A program made the position numbers and the translations under genes. This document shows positions 6,357 to 15,064 of a DNA stretch of 64,000 nt, piece by piece (positions within the stretch are counted from its first letter, which is position 1; the number at the start of each line of letters is the position of its first letter). The notes under the pieces are model-generated. The model did not search any database. It worked only from the letters and a program-made list of their open reading frames with translations, and had not been told where the DNA came from. Where the stretch lies: contig NZ_AQXG01000004.1 in the NCBI RefSeq assembly GCF_000375425.1, forward strand, positions 216,642-280,641, read 5' to 3'. This stretch comes from Gracilimonas tropica DSM 19535 (lineage in GTDB: Bacteria; Bacteroidota; Rhodothermia; Balneolales; Balneolaceae).

Positions 6357-7898
6357 ATGGCCAACCAACCAAACGATCACGTTTATCAGTTGATAAAATC
6401 GTTGACGAAGGCTGAAAAACGTGCTTTTAAAATTTACGCGACCCGAAACAGCAGTCCCGATGCCAAGTTCATCAAGCTTTTCGATGCAATGGATAAAGTT
6501 TCTGATTACGATGAAGAGCAGATCATCAGCAGCATCAAAGGGGTGAAAAAGCGGCAATTTTCGAACCTGAAAGCTCACCTGTATAAGCAGGTTCTCACCA
6601 GCCTCCGGCTCACCAATATCAATCACAATGTGGATATTTATTTGCGGGAGCAGATCGACCATGCCCGAATTTTGTACAACAAGGGATTGTACAAACAAAG
6701 CCTGCGGCTACTCGATAAGGCAAAGACGCTGGCTCACCAAAATCACCGGCATTCGCTGGAATATGAGATCCTGACTTTTGAACGGATCATTGAGTCACAA
6801 TACATCACCCGAAGTCTTAAAAATCGTGCAGATGAACTGATAGCCCAAGCTGAAGAAAAGGTCCAAACACTTAGTAATTACAATAAGCTGTCCAATCTCT
6901 CACTGCGATTGTATGGAATTTATATTAAAGCAGGTCACGTGCGGGATGAGCAAGATTACGAGAACATCAGCCGGTATTTTAAGAAGGAATTAAAAGACAT
7001 CGATCAGGAAGGACTCGGATTTTTTGAGCAGCTCTATCTCTATGTTTCTTATGCGTGGTACAGCCTCATCGTTCAGGACTTCTTGCTGCAGTATCGTTAC
7101 GCGCAAAAATGGGTGGACCTGTTTCATGAGAATCCCGATATGCTGGAACTCGAACCAATTTGGTATCTGAAGGGACAGCATGTGCTACTGGAGGCTTTGT
7201 TTATTCTCGGGCATCACTCAAAGCATGAAGAGGTGAAGAAAAACCTGGCTAAATTCCTTCAAAGTCCACCTACCCGAAGTAATGAGAACATGGAAACGCT
7301 GGGCTTTATGTATTTGTACACCTCTAAGATAAACAGTCATTTCATTGCCGGGACTTTTTCGGAAGGAATCAAGATGGTTCCTGAGCTGAATGACAAGTTG
7401 GACAAGTACTCCCAGCAGGTTGATCCACATCGCATTCTGGTCTTCTATTATAAGATCGCCTGTCTCTATTTTGGCGCCGGGGATAACGAGAAAGCCATCG
7501 AATACCTGAATAAGATCATCAACTATCATGATCAAAAATTACGGGAAGACCTGCACTGTTTTGCGCGTATTTTGAATTTGATTGCCCATTATGAACTGGG
7601 AAATCAGGTGTTGGTGGAGTATCAGATTCGATCGGTCTATCGGTTTTTGAGTAAGATGAATGATCTGAATTTGGTTCAGCAGGAAATCCTCAAATTCCTG
7701 CAAGATCTTGGGAAAGCTAACGGCTCAACCCTGAAAGAAAAGTTCAAAAAACTGAGGGAACGTCTGCTGAAGATCAATGAAATGCCCTACCAAAAACGGC
7801 CGTTTTTATATTTGGACATCGTATCATGGCTGGAAGCAAAAATCCACGATAAACCCGTTCAGCAGGTGATTCAGGAAAAATTTACCCCAAGAAACTGA
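6357..7898 (+). CDS. Uncharacterised helical-repeat (TPR-like) protein
   Basis: 513 residues, no signal peptide or membrane segment. It is almost entirely predicted helix with paired-helix spacing that suggests TPR-like repeats, for example DHARILYNKGLYKQSLRLLD near 100 and KIACLYFGAGDNEKAIEYLN near 370. The N-terminus (VYQLIKSLTKAEKRAFKIYA) is typical of a Bacteroidota protein group without an assigned role. I do not recognise a catalytic motif. It sits alone between the divergent leu and ilv loci. The ATG at 6357 is preceded by a CACTCA-rich stretch and lacks a Shine-Dalgarno site. Confidence 0.85.
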   Translation: MANQPNDHVYQLIKSLTKAEKRAFKIYATRNSSPDAKFIKLFDAMDKVSDYDEEQIISSIKGVKKRQFSNLKAHLYKQVLTSLRLTNINHNVDIYLREQIDHARILYNKGLYKQSLRLLDKAKTLAHQNHRHSLEYEILTFERIIESQYITRSLKNRADELIAQAEEKVQTLSNYNKLSNLSLRLYGIYIKAGHVRDEQDYENISRYFKKELKDIDQEGLGFFEQLYLYVSYAWYSLIVQDFLLQYRYAQKWVDLFHENPDMLELEPIWYLKGQHVLLEALFILGHHSKHEEVKKNLAKFLQSPPTRSNENMETLGFMYLYTSKINSHFIAGTFSEGIKMVPELNDKLDKYSQQVDPHRILVFYYKIACLYFGAGDNEKAIEYLNKIINYHDQKLREDLHCFARILNLIAHYELGNQVLVEYQIRSVYRFLSKMNDLNLVQQEILKFLQDLGKANGSTLKEKFKKLRERLLKINEMPYQKRPFLYLDIVSWLEAKIHDKPVQQVIQEKFTPRN

Positions 7899-8004
7899 GC
7901 TTAAGATCTTTTTGGATATCCCATCAATGCAAAAGAACGAACGGCTGAGAAGTTGCTATTAAAAGCTGTGCCGCTTTTCTTTGAAGCGAATTAAACGTTC
8001 AATT

Positions 8005-8082
8005 ATGCTGTCTGTCATTATTATTTCTCTGGTCATTATTCCCATTATCGGTACTCCATACCGGCCGGGGAAAGCTTTGTGA
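8005..8082 (+). CDS. ilv operon leader peptide (branched-chain-rich, 25 residues)
   Basis: The 25-codon frame begins MLSVIIISLVIIPIIG and ends in KAL before the TGA at 8080. It holds 7 Ile, 2 Val and 3 Leu, with Ile codons grouped as three, two and two between 8017 and 8049. This is the composition of ilv leader peptides, where stalled ribosomes report low charged tRNA. It lies about 25 nt before a terminator and 140 nt before ilvD. There is no clear Shine-Dalgarno site, as is common in this group. The match of composition, position and downstream structure makes a chance frame unlikely. Confidence 0.82.
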   Translation: MLSVIIISLVIIPIIGTPYRPGKAL

Positions 8083-8140
8083 CGACATCACAATTATGAT
8101 TACCGAAAAAGCCTTCCCCATCCCGGAAGGCTTTTTTTTT
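8048..8140 (+). promoter_or_regulatory. ilv transcription attenuator: pause hairpin, antiterminator and terminator
   Basis: Terminator: AAAAAGCCTTCC (8106-8117) pairs with GGAAGGCTTTTT (8125-8136), followed by T's to 8140. Antiterminator: GGGGAAAGCTTT (8067-8078) can pair with AAAGCCTTCCCC (8108-8119) with one A-C mismatch, which takes away the terminator's left arm. An upstream hairpin CGGTA/TACCG (8049-8063) could mask the antiterminator arm. A ribosome stalled on the Ile codons would leave 8067-8078 free and favour read-through; one reaching the stop at 8080 would cover it and allow termination. The mechanism is inferred from the classic ilv model. Confidence 0.8.
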
Positions 8141-8222
8141 GAATAAGACTTTGCGAAATCGGGCTTTTTCAAAGCTTCTTGAGGTAAGGTTTTTTGAACA
8201 AAATATCACACTCACTCACTAC

Positions 8223-9902
8223 ATGGCGGAATTAAATAAATACAGTAAACAAGTAACCCAAGATGACTCCCAACCGGCAGCCCAGGCTATGCTTCACGCT
8301 ATTGGGTTGGATGATAACGATCTGCAAAAGCCATTCATAGGCGTTGCAAGTACAGGATATGAAGGAAACCCTTGCAATATGCACCTCAACGATCTGGCGG
8401 TTCATGTAAAGAAAGGAATTGAACATGCCGGGATGAATGGGCTAATCTTCAACACCATCGGTATTAGTGATGGTATTTCGATGGGGACGCCGGGCATGCG
8501 ATATTCCCTGCCCTCCCGGGATATCATTGCGGATTCCATGGAATCGGTGGTAAAAGGCATGGCGTATGATGGGTTTGCTGCCATTGTAGGATGCGATAAA
8601 AATATGCCGGGCGCTCTCATGGCAATGATACGCGTGAACCGGCCTGCAATTTTGGTGTATGGAGGAACCATCGCGCCGGGACGTCACAATGGAAAGAAAT
8701 TAGATGTGGTTTCCGCCTTTGAAGCCTGGGGTGAAAAGGTGAGCGGGAAGATCTCCGAAGAGGAATTTAAAGATGTAATTCATAATGCCTGTCCCGGCCC
8801 CGGAGCCTGTGGTGGAATGTATACTGCTAACACCATGTCCTCTTCTATTGAAGCTTTGGGATTAGCTCTTCCCTACAATTCTTCCAATCCTGCCAATGAC
8901 AGTTCCAAGGTATTGGAATGTGAGGAGGTTGGAAAACACCTCCGGTATTTGCTTGAGAACGACATCAAGCCGATGGATATCCTCACCAAAAAATCGTTTG
9001 AAAATGCTATCCGCTTGGTGATGGTTTTGGGTGGATCGACCAATGCGGTTCTTCATCTAATCGCTATTGCCAAAACTGCGGAAATTGACATTGGGCTGGA
9101 TGATTTTCAGCGGCTTAGTGACTCCACTCCTTTTCTGGCTGACTTGAAACCCAGTGGCAAGTACGTGATGGAAGATCTTCACAAAGCTGGTGGCGTTCCG
9201 GCCGTACTCAAATTCATGCTGGAAAACGACATGCTGCATGGCGATTGCATGACCGTAACCGGAAAGACACTGGCTGAAAATTTAGCGGAAGTAAAAGCAT
9301 TGGATGAAACCCAGGATATCGTGTTCCCCGTTGAAAAGCCCATCAAGAAAAACGGACACATTCAGATACTCTATGGAAATTTAGCCGAAGAAGGTTCAGT
9401 GGCTAAGATCACAGGCAAGGAAGGCGAAGTTTTTGAAGGAACCGCGCGCGTTTTCGACAGCGAAGTGGAAGCCAATGAAGGCATCAAAAATGGAGAAGTA
9501 AAGTCCGGCGATGTCGTGGTCATTCGCTACTGTGGCCCTAAAGGCGGTCCCGGAATGCCGGAAATGCTGAAGCCGACTTCAGCCATCATGGGGGCGGGAT
9601 TAGGAAAAGAAGTTGCCCTAATTACGGATGGAAGATTTTCCGGTGGAACACATGGATTTGTAGTCGGACACATCACTCCGGAAGCACAAAATGGCGGCGC
9701 GATCGGGCTGGTCCAAAATGGAGATACCATCAAAATAGATGCGGTGGAACGAACCATCGATGTTTTGATCTCTGATGAAAAATTAGCGGAACGGAGAAAA
9801 TCCTGGAAACAACCGCCACTCAAAGAATCTCGCGGAACTCTTTATAAATATGCCAAAACGGTCTCATCGGCCTCCGAAGGTTGCGTTACGGATCAGTTTT
9901 AA
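8223..9902 (+). CDS. ilvD: Dihydroxy-acid dehydratase
   Basis: 559 residues from the ATG at 8223, the usual length. A longer frame begins with a TTG inside the attenuator T-run, which I reject. It dehydrates 2,3-dihydroxy acids to the keto acids of valine and isoleucine. Three cluster cysteines are visible: Cys51 in [10 protein letters not shown], Cys124 in VGCDKNMPG and a third in [15 protein letters not shown] near 190, the pattern of [2Fe-2S] dehydratases. The C-terminal segments [12 protein letters not shown] and [11 protein letters not shown] are intact. First structural gene of the ilv operon; ilvB follows 24 bp later. Confidence 0.97.
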
Positions 9903-9926: not shown

Positions 9927-11666
9927 ATGGCAACTGCAGAAGCAATTCAACAATCAACCAAAACAAAACCGAAACCCACTAAACGCATGACCGGTGCGGA
10001 AGCCCTGGTCCAGATTCTGCTCGAAGAAAATGTGGACATGGCTTTTGGATATCCGGGCGGAGCTATCATGCCGGTGTATGATGCGCTGTATGATCATCAG
10101 GATAGCATCAATCACGTGCTTGCCAGACACGAACAGGGCGCAATCCACATGGCTCAGGGTTATGCGCGGGCGAATGGAAAAGTGGGCGTTTGCCTGGCTA
10201 CATCGGGCCCGGGTGCTACCAATTTGATTACCGGAATTGCCGATGCGCAAATTGATTCTACGCCCCTTGTTTGCATCACCGGACAGGTTCCATCGGCTCT
10301 TTTGGGGAGTGATGCCTTTCAGGAATGTGATGTGCTCGGGGTTTCCATGCCGGTGACCAAATGGAATTTTCAGATCACCAAAGCGGAAGAAATTCCAGTA
10401 GCACTAGCCAAGGCTTTTTATTTGGCTCGATCCGGTCGTCCCGGTCCTGTTGTGATCGATATCACTAAGGATGCACAGTTTGAAGAATTCGATTTCAGTT
10501 ACGAAAAATGTACTTCTCTCCGAAGTTATACACCCAAACCAAAATTGGATCATTCCAAAGTGGCCGAGGCGGCTGAGTTGATCAACAATGCGGAGCGACC
10601 TTACGTGCTTTTTGGCCAGGGTGTGATTTTGGGGAACGCTGAAAAAGAGTTTAAGCAATTCATCGAGAAGACCGGCATTCCGGCTGCGTGGACCATCATG
10701 GGACTTTCGGCTTTGGACACGGATCACCCCTTAAATGTGGGAATGCTAGGGATGCACGGTAACTACGGACCAAATTTACTCACCAACGAGTGCGATGTAT
10801 TGATCGCCGTAGGCATGCGGTTTGATGATCGCGTGACCGGAAATCTGGATAAATATGCCAAGCAGGCTAAGGTCATTCATCTTGAAATTGATCCTGCTGA
10901 AATTGACAAAAATGTACCTGCGGATGTTCCTGTTTTAGGAGATGCCAAAGAATCACTCACCGAACTGAATAAACTGGTAAAACCCAACAGTCACGAAGAA
11001 TGGCTGCAGCGTTTCCGGGAATGCGACAAGCAGGAATGGGACAAAGTGATCGAAGAAGAACTTCACCCAAAATCGGATGTATTAAGTATGGGCGAAGTGA
11101 TTCGCATCATCAACGACGTTACCGGCGGCGATCATATTTTGGTGACCGATGTGGGTCAACATCAAATGGTAGCCTGCCGATACACCAAATTTACAAGATC
11201 GAAAAGCAATATTACTTCAGGCGGACTTGGAACCATGGGTTTTGGCCTTCCCGCAGGAATCGGAGCCGCTCTTGGTGCTCCAGACCGAACCGTTATTGCC
11301 GTTGTTGGGGATGGCGGATTTCAAATGACCCTGCAGGAATTGGCCACCATCTATCAAACCAAAGCCAAAGTAAAAGTGCTGCTCCTTAATAATGAATTTT
11401 TGGGGATGGTCCGCCAGTGGCAGCAGCTGTTTTTTGAAAAAAGATATTCATCAACCGAACTCATCAACCCGGATTTCCAACAGGTAGCTAAAGGATTCTA
11501 TATCCCCACCGCCAAAGTTACGGAGCGGGATAATCTGGAAAGTGCAATTGAGGAATTCATCAATTATGACGGATCTTACTTTCTGGAAGTGATGGTTGGA
11601 AAAGAAAATAACGTATTCCCGATGGTGCCTAGTGGCTCGGGAGTCGCAGAAATAAGATTGGAGTAA
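9927..11666 (+). CDS. ilvB: Acetolactate synthase large (catalytic) subunit
   Basis: 579 residues. ThDP enzyme that makes acetolactate or acetohydroxybutyrate from pyruvate. The catalytic glutamate is in VLARHEQGAIHMAQGYARA (about 65), followed by TSGPGATN. The FAD-like middle domain runs from about 200 to 340. The ThDP/Mg motif GDGGFQMTLQELATI continues to LLNNEFLGMVRQWQ near 470-490, typical of true biosynthetic synthases. It is 24 bp after ilvD and 4 bp before ilvN, so the three genes form one unit. A CACTCA-rich stretch precedes the ATG. Confidence 0.97.
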   Translation: MATAEAIQQSTKTKPKPTKRMTGAEALVQILLEENVDMAFGYPGGAIMPVYDALYDHQDSINHVLARHEQGAIHMAQGYARANGKVGVCLATSGPGATNLITGIADAQIDSTPLVCITGQVPSALLGSDAFQECDVLGVSMPVTKWNFQITKAEEIPVALAKAFYLARSGRPGPVVIDITKDAQFEEFDFSYEKCTSLRSYTPKPKLDHSKVAEAAELINNAERPYVLFGQGVILGNAEKEFKQFIEKTGIPAAWTIMGLSALDTDHPLNVGMLGMHGNYGPNLLTNECDVLIAVGMRFDDRVTGNLDKYAKQAKVIHLEIDPAEIDKNVPADVPVLGDAKESLTELNKLVKPNSHEEWLQRFRECDKQEWDKVIEEELHPKSDVLSMGEVIRIINDVTGGDHILVTDVGQHQMVACRYTKFTRSKSNITSGGLGTMGFGLPAGIGAALGAPDRTVIAVVGDGGFQMTLQELATIYQTKAKVKVLLLNNEFLGMVRQWQQLFFEKRYSSTELINPDFQQVAKGFYIPTAKVTERDNLESAIEEFINYDGSYFLEVMVGKENNVFPMVPSGSGVAEIRLE

Positions 11667-11670
11667 TCAA

Positions 11671-12213
11671 ATGGAATCAGAAAAACAAGAATATACGATA
11701 ACGGCTTACACTGAAAATCATGTCGGACTTTTGCACCGAATTACCATCATTTTCACCAAGCGGAAGATCAACATTGAAAGCCTGACGACTTCCGAAAGCG
11801 AAGTAGAAGGCATTCACCGGTTCACCATTGCTGTCACGGAAACGGAAGAGCAGGTGATCAAAGTAGTGAAGCAAATCGAGAAGCAGGTGGAAGTGCTGAA
11901 AGCGGATTATTACAAAAAGAAAGAAGTGGTGCAGCAAGAACTGGCGCTGTACAAAATTTCGACCGAATCGTTGACTCGGGGTTTGGATGTGGAGCGGATT
12001 GTCCGAGAACATAATGCTCGTTTCCTGACCATCGAAGAACATTTTGTGGTCATCGAAAAATCCGGATTCAGAAGAGAAACCGTAGCACTTTTTGAAGAAC
12101 TCAAACCCTACGGAATCAGCGAATTCGTCCGATCCGGACGCATTGCCGTCTCCAGAGAACGAGATGGCATCGGAAAAGACGTAGAAAAGATACTAGCTGA
12201 AGCAGCTGTTTAA
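11671..12213 (+). CDS. ilvN: Acetolactate synthase small (regulatory) subunit
   Basis: 180 residues, starting 4 bp after ilvB. The N-terminal ACT domain (TITAYTENHVGLLHRITIIF, then SLTTSESEVEGIHRFTI) binds branched-chain amino acids and controls IlvB. The C-terminal half (FLTIEEHFVVIEKSG, LKPYGISEFVRSGRIAVSR) is the conserved activation domain. Feedback inhibition by valine is expected from the family. Confidence 0.95.
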   Translation: MESEKQEYTITAYTENHVGLLHRITIIFTKRKINIESLTTSESEVEGIHRFTIAVTETEEQVIKVVKQIEKQVEVLKADYYKKKEVVQQELALYKISTESLTRGLDVERIVREHNARFLTIEEHFVVIEKSGFRRETVALFEELKPYGISEFVRSGRIAVSRERDGIGKDVEKILAEAAV

Positions 12214-12306: not shown

Positions 12307-13377
12307 ATGGCAACATTAAATTTTGGCGGAGTCGAAGAAGAAGTAGTAACGCGGGAAGAATTCCCACTCGATAAAGCACGAGAAACATTAAAAGACGAAA
12401 CGATCGCTGTTCTTGGATATGGCGTTCAGGGACCCGGGCAGGCATTGAACCTGAAAGACAATGGATTCAATGTGATCGTTGGTCAGCGTAAAAATTCCAG
12501 CACCTGGGACAAAGCCGTGGAAGATGGCTGGGTACCCGGCGAAACCCTTTTTGAAATTGAAGAAGCCGCTCAGCGTGGAACTATCGTACAGTATCTGCTT
12601 TCAGATGCCGGACAGATCGCGGTTTGGCCAACGGTTAAAGCGGCCCTCAATCCCGGTGATGCCCTTTACTTTTCTCACGGATTTGGAATTACATACAAAG
12701 ATCGTACAGGCATCATCCCTCCTGAAAATGTGGATGTAATCTTAGTAGCTCCTAAAGGTTCAGGCACTTCCCTCCGACGTATGTTCCTGGAGGGAAGAGG
12801 TCTGAATTCTAGTTATGCAATTTTCCAGGATGCGACCGGAAATGCTAAAGATCGAGTCACCGCTTTAGGTATCGGAGTCGGTTCCGGATATCTTTTTGAA
12901 ACCACCTTCAAGGATGAAGTATATAGTGATCTGACTGGCGAGCGTGGAACCCTGATGGGCGCGATTCAGGGAATTTTTGCAGCGCAGTATGAAGTCCTGC
13001 GAGCCAATGGACACTCTCCTTCCGAAGCATTCAACGAAACGGTGGAAGAACTCACCCAATCGCTGATGCCCCTCGTAGCCGAAAACGGTATGGATTGGAT
13101 GTATGCCAACTGTTCTACTACCGCTCAACGTGGTGCGCTGGACTGGTGGAAGAAATTCCGCGATGCCACTAAGCCGGTTTTTGAAAACCTGTATGAGGAA
13201 GTAGCGGCTGGCAACGAAGCCCAACGCTCTATCGACTCGAATTCCAAAGACGATTACCGGGAAAAACTGGAAGGTGAACTGGCTGAACTCCGCGAATCCG
13301 AAATGTGGAAAGCAGGCAAAACCGTACGTCAGCTTCGCCCCGAGAATACGCCGGTTGAGGAAGAAGTAGCTGAGTAA
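12307..13377 (+). CDS. ilvC: Ketol-acid reductoisomerase
   Basis: 356 residues. It isomerises and reduces acetohydroxy acids to 2,3-dihydroxy acids with Mg and a nicotinamide cofactor. The Rossmann motif LGYGVQGPGQALNLKDNG (about 37-54) is followed by the cofactor loop VGQRKNSSTW and FSHGFGI near 125. The catalytic region has GERGTLMGAIQG and a C-terminal acidic and helical segment. The length and GPGQA fingerprint fit the class I-like form in Bacteroidota. It follows ilvN by 93 bp, with a palindromic repeat in between. Confidence 0.96.
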   Translation: MATLNFGGVEEEVVTREEFPLDKARETLKDETIAVLGYGVQGPGQALNLKDNGFNVIVGQRKNSSTWDKAVEDGWVPGETLFEIEEAAQRGTIVQYLLSDAGQIAVWPTVKAALNPGDALYFSHGFGITYKDRTGIIPPENVDVILVAPKGSGTSLRRMFLEGRGLNSSYAIFQDATGNAKDRVTALGIGVGSGYLFETTFKDEVYSDLTGERGTLMGAIQGIFAAQYEVLRANGHSPSEAFNETVEELTQSLMPLVAENGMDWMYANCSTTAQRGALDWWKKFRDATKPVFENLYEEVAAGNEAQRSIDSNSKDDYREKLEGELAELRESEMWKAGKTVRQLRPENTPVEEEVAE

Positions 13378-13798
13378 CAAAATCCGTGCGATTATTCCGC
13401 TCCAACGCAGAGCGTAAGAGCGAGATAAATATTTGAACAGTTAAAACCCGTCCAAGCGGACGCTTGAACTAGTTCTTTTAAAATATTAAGCGTAGATCGG
13501 ACAGCTTGTCCGACTATTTAGCCAAAGGCTCTAACTTCATTCCATGAGAACGAATTTAAAGAAAGTCCTCCCTTGAGGGAGGTGCCGACCAAATGGGATG
13601 CGGAGGGTGCAAGCTATGGGCAATACTGTCTGATATTAGCAACATCAGCGCCTTAGCACCAACACCCCTCCCGGCTAAAGCCGTACTCCCCTCAAGGGGA
13701 GAATTTCTTTGTTATACAAACTATTTCAAATCGATACTACGCTCTGCTTTAAAACGAGAGTAATTTTTCATTCATAATTTTTCATTTTTAATTCCTTT
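13378..13798. repeat. 421-bp gap between ilvC and ilvA made of several palindromic repeats
   Basis: No gene is seen. From left to right: a family A palindrome (13399-13421); CAAGCG-GA-CGCTTG (13453-13466, family B); CGGACA-GCT-TGTCCG (13498-13512); and a segment of about 135 bp bounded by the hairpins CCTCCCTTGAGGGAGG (13567-13582) and CTCCCCTCAAGGGGAG (13686-13701). The last segment has matching inverted ends and looks like the non-coding CCCCTTGAGGGG element seen in many Bacteroidota genomes, a MITE-like insertion. An ilvA promoter may lie in the AT-rich stretch 13740-13798, but I cannot define it. Confidence 0.65.
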
Positions 13799-15064
13799 AT
13801 GCCTGAAGCTCAAATTTCATCTACCGTCTCGGTTCAAAACATACAGGAAGCTGCGCACGTGCTTAAAGACATTGCCGTGCGAACGCCCCTGATGTTCAAT
13901 CATCAACTCTCGGAACAGACGGGAGCGAAGATCTGGCTAAAGCGGGAAGACCTGCAAGTGGTTCGCTCGTATAAGATTCGCGGAGCATATCACAAGATTG
14001 AAAGTCTTTCGGATGAGGAACTGGAAAATGGAATTGTGTGTGCGAGTGCCGGAAATCATGCGCAAGGTGTGGCTTTTGCTTGCGCCAAGAAGCAGATCAA
14101 AGGCACTATTTTTATGCCGGTTCCAACACCCGAGCAGAAAGTGAAACAGGTGAAGATGTTTGGTAAGAAATTTGTGGATGTCCGTTTAGTGGGCGACACT
14201 TTCGACGACTCCTTTGCTGAAGCCATGACTTTTTGTAATGAACAACATGCCGCCTTTATCCCTCCTTTTGACGATCCAAAGATCATTGAAGGACAAGGAA
14301 CCGTGGGCAAAGAGATCCTGGAAGACTCCGATGAACCGATCGATTATGTGATCGTACCGGTGGGCGGGGGGGGACTTTCATCCGGCATTGGTTCGTATTT
14401 CAGCGTACTATCTCCTGATACCAAGATCATTGGTGTGGAACCTGCGGGTGCGCCAGCTATGCAAAAATCATTAGAAAAAGGAGAAGTGGTAACCCTGGAA
14501 AAAATTGACAAGTTTGTGGATGGAGCTTCTGTGAAGCGTGTTGGCGATCTCAACTTTGAGATTGCCCGGGAAGTCCTCGAAAAAGTGATCACCGTACCCG
14601 AAGGAAAAGTCTGCAGCACCATCCTAAAGCTTTATAACGAACAGGCTATTGTGGCCGAGCCTGCAGGAGCGCTTTCCGTAGCCGCGCTGGATTCTCTGAA
14701 GGATGAGATCAAAGGCAAAAATGTGGTTTGTGTGGTAAGTGGCAGCAATAACGACATCACCCGAACGGCAGAGATCAAAGAACGCTCGATGTTGTACGAA
14801 GGTTTGAAACACTATTTTATCGTGGATTTCCCTCAGCGAGCGGGAGCATTACGGGAGTTTCTGAATGAAGTACTTGGACCTGATGATGACATCGCTCACT
14901 TCGAATACTCCAAGAAAACCAGTCGTGAACAAGGTCCGGCCTTAATCGGAATCGAAATCAAACAGCGTGCAGATTTTGAGCCTTTGGTTGAGCGAATGGA
15001 AGCAGCGAACATCAATTACGAATACGTGAATGATCAGCCCCATTTGTTTCGGTTTTTGATTTGA
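13799..15064 (+). CDS. ilvA: Threonine ammonia-lyase (threonine deaminase)
   Basis: 421 residues. PLP enzyme converting threonine to 2-oxobutanoate, the entry to isoleucine. The PLP lysine is in VVRSYKIRGAYHKI (about 58). The phosphate-binding glycine loop is VPVGGGGLSSGIG near 187, and ASAGNHAQGVAFAC is intact. The C-terminal 90 residues (FIVDFPQRAGALREFLNEVLGP) form a single ACT-like regulatory domain, the shorter architecture compared with the two-ACT enterobacterial enzyme. It lies downstream of ilvC on the same strand but separated by 421 bp of repeats, so it may have its own promoter. Confidence 0.95.
   Translation: MPEAQISSTVSVQNIQEAAHVLKDIAVRTPLMFNHQLSEQTGAKIWLKREDLQVVRSYKIRGAYHKIESLSDEELENGIVCASAGNHAQGVAFACAKKQIKGTIFMPVPTPEQKVKQVKMFGKKFVDVRLVGDTFDDSFAEAMTFCNEQHAAFIPPFDDPKIIEGQGTVGKEILEDSDEPIDYVIVPVGGGGLSSGIGSYFSVLSPDTKIIGVEPAGAPAMQKSLEKGEVVTLEKIDKFVDGASVKRVGDLNFEIAREVLEKVITVPEGKVCSTILKLYNEQAIVAEPAGALSVAALDSLKDEIKGKNVVCVVSGSNNDITRTAEIKERSMLYEGLKHYFIVDFPQRAGALREFLNEVLGPDDDIAHFEYSKKTSREQGPALIGIEIKQRADFEPLVERMEAANINYEYVNDQPHLFRFLI

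Follow-up and report, generated by a model that had tools for sequence, protein, structure and literature searches.

What controls the ilvDBNC operon of Gracilimonas tropica, and what part does the short isoleucine-rich reading frame ahead of it play? We analysed a 64-kb stretch of DNA carrying this operon (the window) from a genome of 3.83 Mb (48 contigs, 98.8% complete), together with the DNA upstream of ilvD in related bacteria. We conclude, with a probability of roughly 0.92, that the leader before ilvDBNC is a classical four-segment ribosome-mediated transcription attenuator; very probably it is a real and conserved attenuator, ordinary in kind and useful in reach.

Organization of the ilvDBNC leader

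The four ilv genes were named by NCBIfam models (Table 1); ilvD starts 82 nt past the T run of the terminator (T9, 8132-8140). Upstream of the leader there is a gene of unassigned role on the same strand (6357-7898, +). ilvA begins at 13799, after ilvC; in the 421-nt gap between these two genes (13378-13798) no ILV-leader unit was found by the automatic test described below.

Table 1. Positions of the leader elements and of the ilv genes in the window
Feature	Position	Strand	Remarks
Predicted Bacteroidota-type promoter	7953-7983	+	TTG 7953-7955, 20 nt, TTTCTTTG 7976-7983 (cf. TAnnTTTG)
Leader ORF	8005-8082	+	encodes MLSVIIISLVIIPIIGTPYRPGKAL*; ATG 8005, TGA 8080-8082, 25 codons
Segment 1, UUUCUCUGGU	8024-8033	+	within Ile-Ser-Leu-Val codons; partner 8064-8073
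Second Ile codon block, ATT ATT CCC ATT ATC	8035-8049	+	bulge of the 1:2 stem
Inner hairpin, CGGUA-CUCCA-UACCG	8049-8063	+	inside the 1:2 stem
Segment 2, GCCGGGGAAAGCUUU	8064-8078	+	partners segment 1 or segment 3; would lie under a ribosome at the stop codon
Segment 3, AAAAAGCCUUCCCC	8106-8119	+	common to antiterminator and terminator
Intrinsic terminator, segments 3:4	8106-8140	+	arms AAAAAGCCTTCC 8106-8117 and GGAAGGCTTTTT 8125-8136
ilvD, dihydroxy-acid dehydratase	8223-9902	+	TIGR00110 and NF002068 above cut-off; first gene controlled in the model
ilvB, acetolactate synthase large subunit	9927-11666	+	TIGR00118 above cut-off
ilvN/ilvH, acetolactate synthase small subunit	11671-12213	+	TIGR00119 above cut-off
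ilvC, ketol-acid reductoisomerase	12307-13377	+	TIGR00465 above cut-off

The elements that had been predicted at this locus, namely a 25-codon frame with 7 Ile, 2 Val and 3 Leu, a terminator with a T run at 8106-8140, and an antiterminator competing for the left arm of this terminator, are all present in the sequence at those positions. The antiterminator pairs GGGGAAAGCTTT (8067-8078) with AAAGCCTTCCCC (8108-8119), with one A.C mismatch; it shares segment 3 with the terminator, and the two structures are mutually exclusive. A third hairpin, predicted as a separate element at 8049-8063, is also present, but it is the inner part of a larger stem: when the whole untranslated leader was folded, segment 1 paired with segment 2 (P = 1.00 in the window), enclosing this hairpin and leaving the second Ile codon block in the bulge. 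Since the hairpin lies inside a larger 1:2 stem, the leader has the full four-segment design; the original prediction had overlooked this classical 1:2 "protector" stem, and also the promoter. The hairpin itself is possibly a pause hairpin. A UCCC:GGGG pairing (8040-8043 with 8067-8070), seen in a short fold, was discarded: most leaders lack it by eye, and the longer 1:2 stem replaces it once the whole leader is folded. Also by eye, a small hairpin at about 8078-8092 occurs in own-genus leaders only.

The region 8040-8142 folds better than all of 200 dinucleotide shuffles (z = -3.89); 8040-8120, in which segments 1 and 4 are missing, adopts the antiterminator fold, and 2 of 200 shuffles fold equally well. 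A simple consensus scanner reported no terminators and no sigma-70 promoters in 7800-8300; the likely reasons are that the stem extends into the T run and that the promoter belongs to a different type. The TTG columns of the predicted promoter are invariant in 29 aligned upstream regions (see below); the pattern TTG-N19-21-T[AT]NNTT[TA][GA] was found in 22 of the 29 (in 21 of these 22, TTG lies 49-54 nt before the start codon), and the exact TTTCTTTG in 16. Transcription is predicted to start at about 7988; the -7 box of the Bacteroidota-type promoter is reported at -12 to -5 (PMC9723704).

From the anatomy of the leader, its conservation and covariation, and the outcomes of folding in silico, we infer how translation, stalling, pausing and termination would proceed in the cell. 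RNA polymerase would start near 7988 and transcribe the leader, and a ribosome would begin at the AUG at 8005. As long as charged tRNA-Ile and tRNA-Val are in sufficient supply, the ribosome would reach the stop codon (8080-8082) and cover segment 2; the 3:4 terminator would then form and transcription would end before ilvD. With isoleucine (or valine) in short supply, the ribosome would stall on the Ile/Val block (codons 4-15) and keep segment 1 unpaired, so that 2:3 would pair, no terminator would form, and ilvDBNC would be transcribed. On an untranslated leader, 1:2 would form, making termination the default.

Conservation among ilvD loci of the class

We searched for IlvD in 245 genomes of the class, obtaining 164 matches at 1e-100, and for 130 of the 164 loci we inspected the DNA ahead of ilvD (three of these stretches are truncated at contig ends). 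The comparison with relatives that had been proposed for this region bore out the prediction: the Ile-rich frame, the antiterminator and the terminator are kept at 29 of 29 close ilvD loci, which are all the loci with an IlvD identity of at least 68% (seven genera of the same family account for 28, and a different family of the order for the remaining one). This conservation supports the proposal that ribosome stalling on Ile codons would control the operon in the cell. The closest IlvD in a separate contig scan, in which records very near the window's own may have been left out, is that of Gracilimonas mengyeensis (91%).

An automatic test for the unit (ILV-rich ORF, antiterminator and terminator) scores 27 of the 29 loci; the remaining two (L017 and L020, with 7 ILV of 22 residues) are below its cut-off. 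It scored none of the remaining 101 upstream regions, including 35 of the same family as well as locus L293 of G111, and none of the 130 upstream regions when these were reverse-complemented; in shuffled upstream regions of other loci, the unit was found in 2 of 240. On both strands of the window, with 24 terminator-like sites, the sole automatic match is this leader (with two nested starts). A covariance model made from the 29 leaders found the same 29 sites in the 245 genomes (E up to 1.7e-4), as it should because it was built from those sequences, and nothing else below 0.005; all 29 strong sites stand before ilvD. There are 19 further weak matches (E 0.005-0.09), one of which was inspected by eye (L162, in G027, a genome without an IlvD match at 1e-100).

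These counts bear on whether the hairpin could be the ordinary terminator of the upstream gene, next to a chance ORF. It does lie downstream of 6357-7898 on the same strand, but it starts 207 nt past the stop codon of that gene, with a conserved promoter-like stretch in between, and ORF, antiterminator and terminator occur together at all 29 loci as against 2 of the 240 shuffles and none of the 130 reverse complements; we consider this explanation extremely improbable.

Several other sites were noted. A second DNA match in the window's own genome (L002) has a similar terminator but no leader by eye, and was rejected; so was a 38-aa ORF before ilvD in family f8, which probably represents the end of a longer gene for a GntP-like permease (Pfam matches with E 0.011 and 0.0076, below cut-off). 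In L004, the spacer between terminator and ilvD is 176 nt (about 1325-1500), as compared with 23-82 nt in the other own-genus loci; it has inverted-repeat character (CCTCGAAGCGT ... ACGCTTCGAGG) and may be an interspersed repeat. Six loci from families f9, f11 and f19 (L126-L130 and L132) contain short ORFs rich in Leu, Ile and Val in the interval from -268 to -92 relative to the start of the IlvD match, for which no T-run terminator was found. Downstream of the ORF in L128 there is a perfect inverted repeat of 10 nt (GGUCAACCCC, at -126 and -76), so that this may be a translational attenuator; the repeats in L130 and L126 measure 8 nt, and the other three have none of at least 8 nt. Three IlvD matches contain one in-frame stop: TAG in G144 and G145 (both members of genus g45), where it may sit at the very start of the match, and TAA in G364.

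The leader peptide

The reading frame is conserved in the 29 aligned leaders. In the first 48 aligned columns, stops occur in none of the 29 rows in frame 0, and in 16 and 13 rows in the other frames; the mean BLOSUM score is 1.95 in frame 0 vs 0.61 and 0.95, synonymous differences are commonest in frame 0, and gaps within the first 66 columns span one or two complete codons (3 or 6 nt). Some rows of genus g2 have a 1-nt gap near the leader stop codon. The start codon is ATG in 22 of the 29 leaders and TTG in 7; the latter, with TTG as the sole leader start, are the 7 relatives of genus g19, which counts against the model. Bacteroidota start translation largely without Shine-Dalgarno sites, and by eye we saw no Shine-Dalgarno-like stretch ahead of the leader ORF; adenine is dominant at -3 (18/22) and -4 (20/22) before the ATG starts.

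The ORF is enriched in codons of the amino acid that the operon makes: Ile accounts for 27.8% of the residues in the 29 leaders, Val for 11.7% and Leu for 7.6%, compared with 6.8%, 7.4% and 8.8% in six comparison proteins from the window. Every leader has at least three Ile codons, and Val-Ile-Ile is present in 24 of the 29 peptides. Leu is absent from 13 leaders and its codons are at background level overall, with one exception (L031, 7 Leu vs 3 Ile); thus, of a leader described as rich in Ile, Val and Leu, the conserved Ile and some Val stand and the Leu does not. Leaders of genus g2 have one to five Thr codons in addition to Ile (two to five in L016-L018, L020, L022, and L025); isoleucine is synthesized from threonine.

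A short, hydrophobic peptide with a conserved frame might instead be a functional small membrane protein, with the terminator merely ending its message. We think this very improbable: the length varies from 19 to 26 aa and g19 and G108 have a different C-terminal half, while the pairings and their location close to the stop codon are retained; g2 peptides, MITRTTITVIINVIGTKYRPGK for example, have little hydrophobicity; in most leaders the choice among synonymous codons promotes the 1:2 pairing (see below); and all 29 strong model sites in the class precede ilvD.

Conserved and competing RNA structures

An intrinsic terminator stands between the ORF and the first gene at all 29 loci, its core (GCCUUCC with GGAAGGC) being paired in every one, with one G-U counted. 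The core of the antiterminator (segment 2 with segment 3) also pairs in 29 of 29. Outside this invariant core the antiterminator varies in a compensatory manner: one position has GC in 8 leaders, AU in 7, CG in 2 and GU in 4 (unpaired in 8), and its neighbour has GC in 21, AU in 7, and GU in 1. The pairing energy of segments 2 and 3 is -13.4 kcal/mol vs an average of -6.8 for shuffled regions, although in four loci 9-22 of 200 shuffles match the real pairing; segment 2 pairs nearly as well with segment 3 of other species (-11.7 vs -13.4 kcal/mol), as expected since the core is almost invariant. In all 29 leaders, the start of segment 2 falls in the range from 21 nt ahead of the stop codon to 1 nt past it, the segment as a whole lies within -21 to +14 of that codon, and the last branched-chain amino acid codon is 9-20 nt upstream of segment 2; this spacing is partly built in, because segment 2 was sought near the stop codon.

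The terminator core hardly varies in the 29 sequences, and covariation of the terminator plus inner hairpin is 0.102 vs 0.072 in shuffled alignments, with a control slid by +3 as high (0.111). The inner hairpin (columns 50-55 with 61-66) has 93.5% of its cells paired. For the 1:2 stem together with the inner stem, 84.1% of cells are paired vs 76.5% shuffled and 34-54% slid, and covariation is 0.375 vs 0.240 shuffled (0 of 500 as high) and 0.078-0.199 slid; in a set of 21 more alike sequences, the 1:2 values are 89.6% vs 87.6% paired, and 0.236 vs 0.199 for covariation (0 of 500). Pairs of the 1:2 stem changed on both sides are not in excess of the shuffles (42 of 500 for the 29 sequences, 72 of 500 for the 21). 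When leaders were recoded synonymously (applying the codon usage of the window to all species), the probability of 1:2 exceeded the mean of the recodings in 26 of 29 leaders, and in 17 of 29 at most 5% of the recodings reached the real probability. The 1:2 stem, which blocks the antiterminator in the folded untranslated leader, is strong in the window's own genus; it is weak in the leaders of g19 (P 0.10-0.83) and in six of the seven from g2 (0.42-0.73).

Ribosome position and the amino acid signal

We masked the leaders in silico with ribosome-sized footprints of assumed size. Masking at the last Ile codon leads to the antiterminator in 28 of the 29 leaders (L030 fails), and masking at the stop codon leads to the terminator in all 29; with these assumed footprints, a stalled ribosome frees segment 2 and a ribosome at the stop codon masks it. 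Without a ribosome, 9 of the 29 leaders form the antiterminator, and the window's does not.

In a stall scan, the mask, again of assumed size, was slid over 632 leader codons: occupancy of 425 favours the antiterminator, leaving 207 others. The 425 codons comprise 38.6% Ile, 16.0% Val, 6.8% Leu, and 7.8% Thr, as compared with 5.8%, 2.9%, 9.2%, and 1.9% among the 207. Ile codons thus appear to sit where stalling should matter, and the scan argues that the usual signal is Ile with Val, not Leu; given this enrichment, the most likely identity of the leader is a ribosome-mediated attenuator of trp/his type that responds to Ile (and Val). In the window, the likely stalling site is the second Ile block plus 8014-8025.

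A variant of this reading keeps the attenuator but has its read-through set mainly by valine, by several amino acids, or by general translation speed. Val codons are enriched in the stall scan as well and Val-Ile-Ile is frequent, the g2 leaders carry their Thr codons, and L031 is Leu-rich; against this, the enrichment of Ile is the strongest and no leader has fewer than three Ile codons. We regard the variant as unlikely, and predict isoleucine as the ilv signal in these bacteria.

Relation to known regulatory elements

No Rfam family reached its gathering score within the window. Between 7900 and 8240 the best sub-threshold matches are Phe_leader (RF01859; 28.9 bits, E 0.0054) and Thr_leader (RF00506; 20.5 bits, E 0.13), both under the gathering score of 55; T-box is absent among the 14 Rfam matches up to E 10 in this interval, in which the sole riboswitch family is Magnesium-II (E 5.7, other strand). 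A metabolite- or tRNA-sensing aptamer (riboswitch or T-box), with the ORF incidental, is scarcely credible to us as an explanation: a terminator with an alternative fold fits such designs too, and a ppGpp riboswitch has been reported for ilv genes elsewhere (PMC10272879), but these searches gave no aptamer family at gathering score and amino acid leaders as best matches, and what is conserved is a block of codons, with the stop codon located at segment 2.

The attenuator of ilvDBNC resembles classical trp/his/ilv attenuators in its ORF rich in the product amino acid, its 1:2, 2:3, and 3:4 stems, its intrinsic terminator and the biosynthetic operon downstream; it differs in lacking an Rfam gathering match and a visible Shine-Dalgarno site, and in having a Bacteroidota-type promoter and ilvD as first gene. 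The Corynebacterium ilvB-II motif (ilvBNC attenuator) likewise precedes an ilv operon and combines a uORF rich in branched-chain amino acids with an antiterminator and a terminator, but is described as standing before ilvB with a uORF usually of 15-17 aa (PMC10272879). The "leucine-rich attenuator peptide" of Staphylococcus aureus ilv also represents leader-peptide attenuation of branched-chain amino acid synthesis, in Firmicutes, however, leucine-rich and, by the title of the report, combined with CodY (PMC5794164). The Veillonella ilvD (WRC-18-2) motif is another conserved element before ilvD, in some cases with a possible terminator, but is found in Veillonella only and presented as a weak riboswitch candidate, its description mentioning no ORF (PMC8632094).

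Within the phylum, transcript mapping in Flavobacterium psychrophilum gave "strong clues" for leader-peptide attenuation before amino-acid operons, the same kind of mechanism, in a report whose main text has no word beginning with "ilv" (PMC9723704), and for Bacteroides thetaiotaomicron short ORFs located within long 5′ UTRs are described as reminiscent of attenuation leaders (PMC7366714). Leader-peptide attenuation is therefore, going by these reports, not unheard of in Bacteroidota at large. Bacteroid-trp (RF01692) is likewise a cis-regulatory candidate in Bacteroidetes (PMC2864571), linked to trp by its name alone; its covariance model has no matches in the G. tropica genome and matches 1 of 14 control genomes (Bacteroides ihuae). 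For Balneolota, our searches of open-licence PMC papers turned up no case of leader-peptide attenuation, in keeping with the remark in the original prediction that such control is little documented there; the PMC papers with both "Balneol" and "leader peptide" are, by title, on other subjects. Given the earlier reports, the mechanism is known and the Balneolaceae member appears to be new, although Lopatovskaya et al. (2010) may list Bacteroidota attenuators.

With this leader, Balneolota would gain a clean and testable example of ribosome-mediated attenuation, from an RNA family without an Rfam gathering match and a 25-codon gene that is easily overlooked. Together with its flavobacterial relatives, it suggests that translation closely trails RNA polymerase on leader RNAs despite the scarcity of Shine-Dalgarno-led initiation in this phylum.

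Similar leaders elsewhere in Bacteroidota

The contig scan kept 80 IlvD loci, and the unit was found in 44 of them (7 of 8 in Balneolaceae and 37 of 72 others, vs 2 of 240 shuffles); most of the 37 we take to belong to genera of Flavobacteriaceae. A phylum sample of 50 loci outside the class has 19 with a unit, some of which look doubtful, and 1 of 50 among reverse complements; the class, contig-scan and phylum sets partly overlap and are not independent. Many flavobacterial units differ in sequence, for example in having UGAUACAG at the stop codon vs CCUGUAUC.

We lean towards the view that attenuators with Ile/Val codons are standard for operons headed by ilvD or ilvE-ilvD across much of Bacteroidota, rebuilt repeatedly from unlike segments (with arms GCCUUCC in Balneolaceae and CCUGUAUC in Flavobacteriaceae), and in tandem in some Flavobacteriaceae. 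If so, the response to these amino acids would be steeper or stricter where two attenuators stand in tandem.

Two units in tandem were found at 11 of the 80 loci, in records of Sinomicrobium, Zhouia, Tenacibaculum, and Robertkochia: both units are complete and lie within 1500 nt upstream of ilvD in L171, L176, L181, L185, L186, L188, L190, L193, L198, L206, and L239. Two loci of the phylum sample (L247 and L252) have tandem units too.
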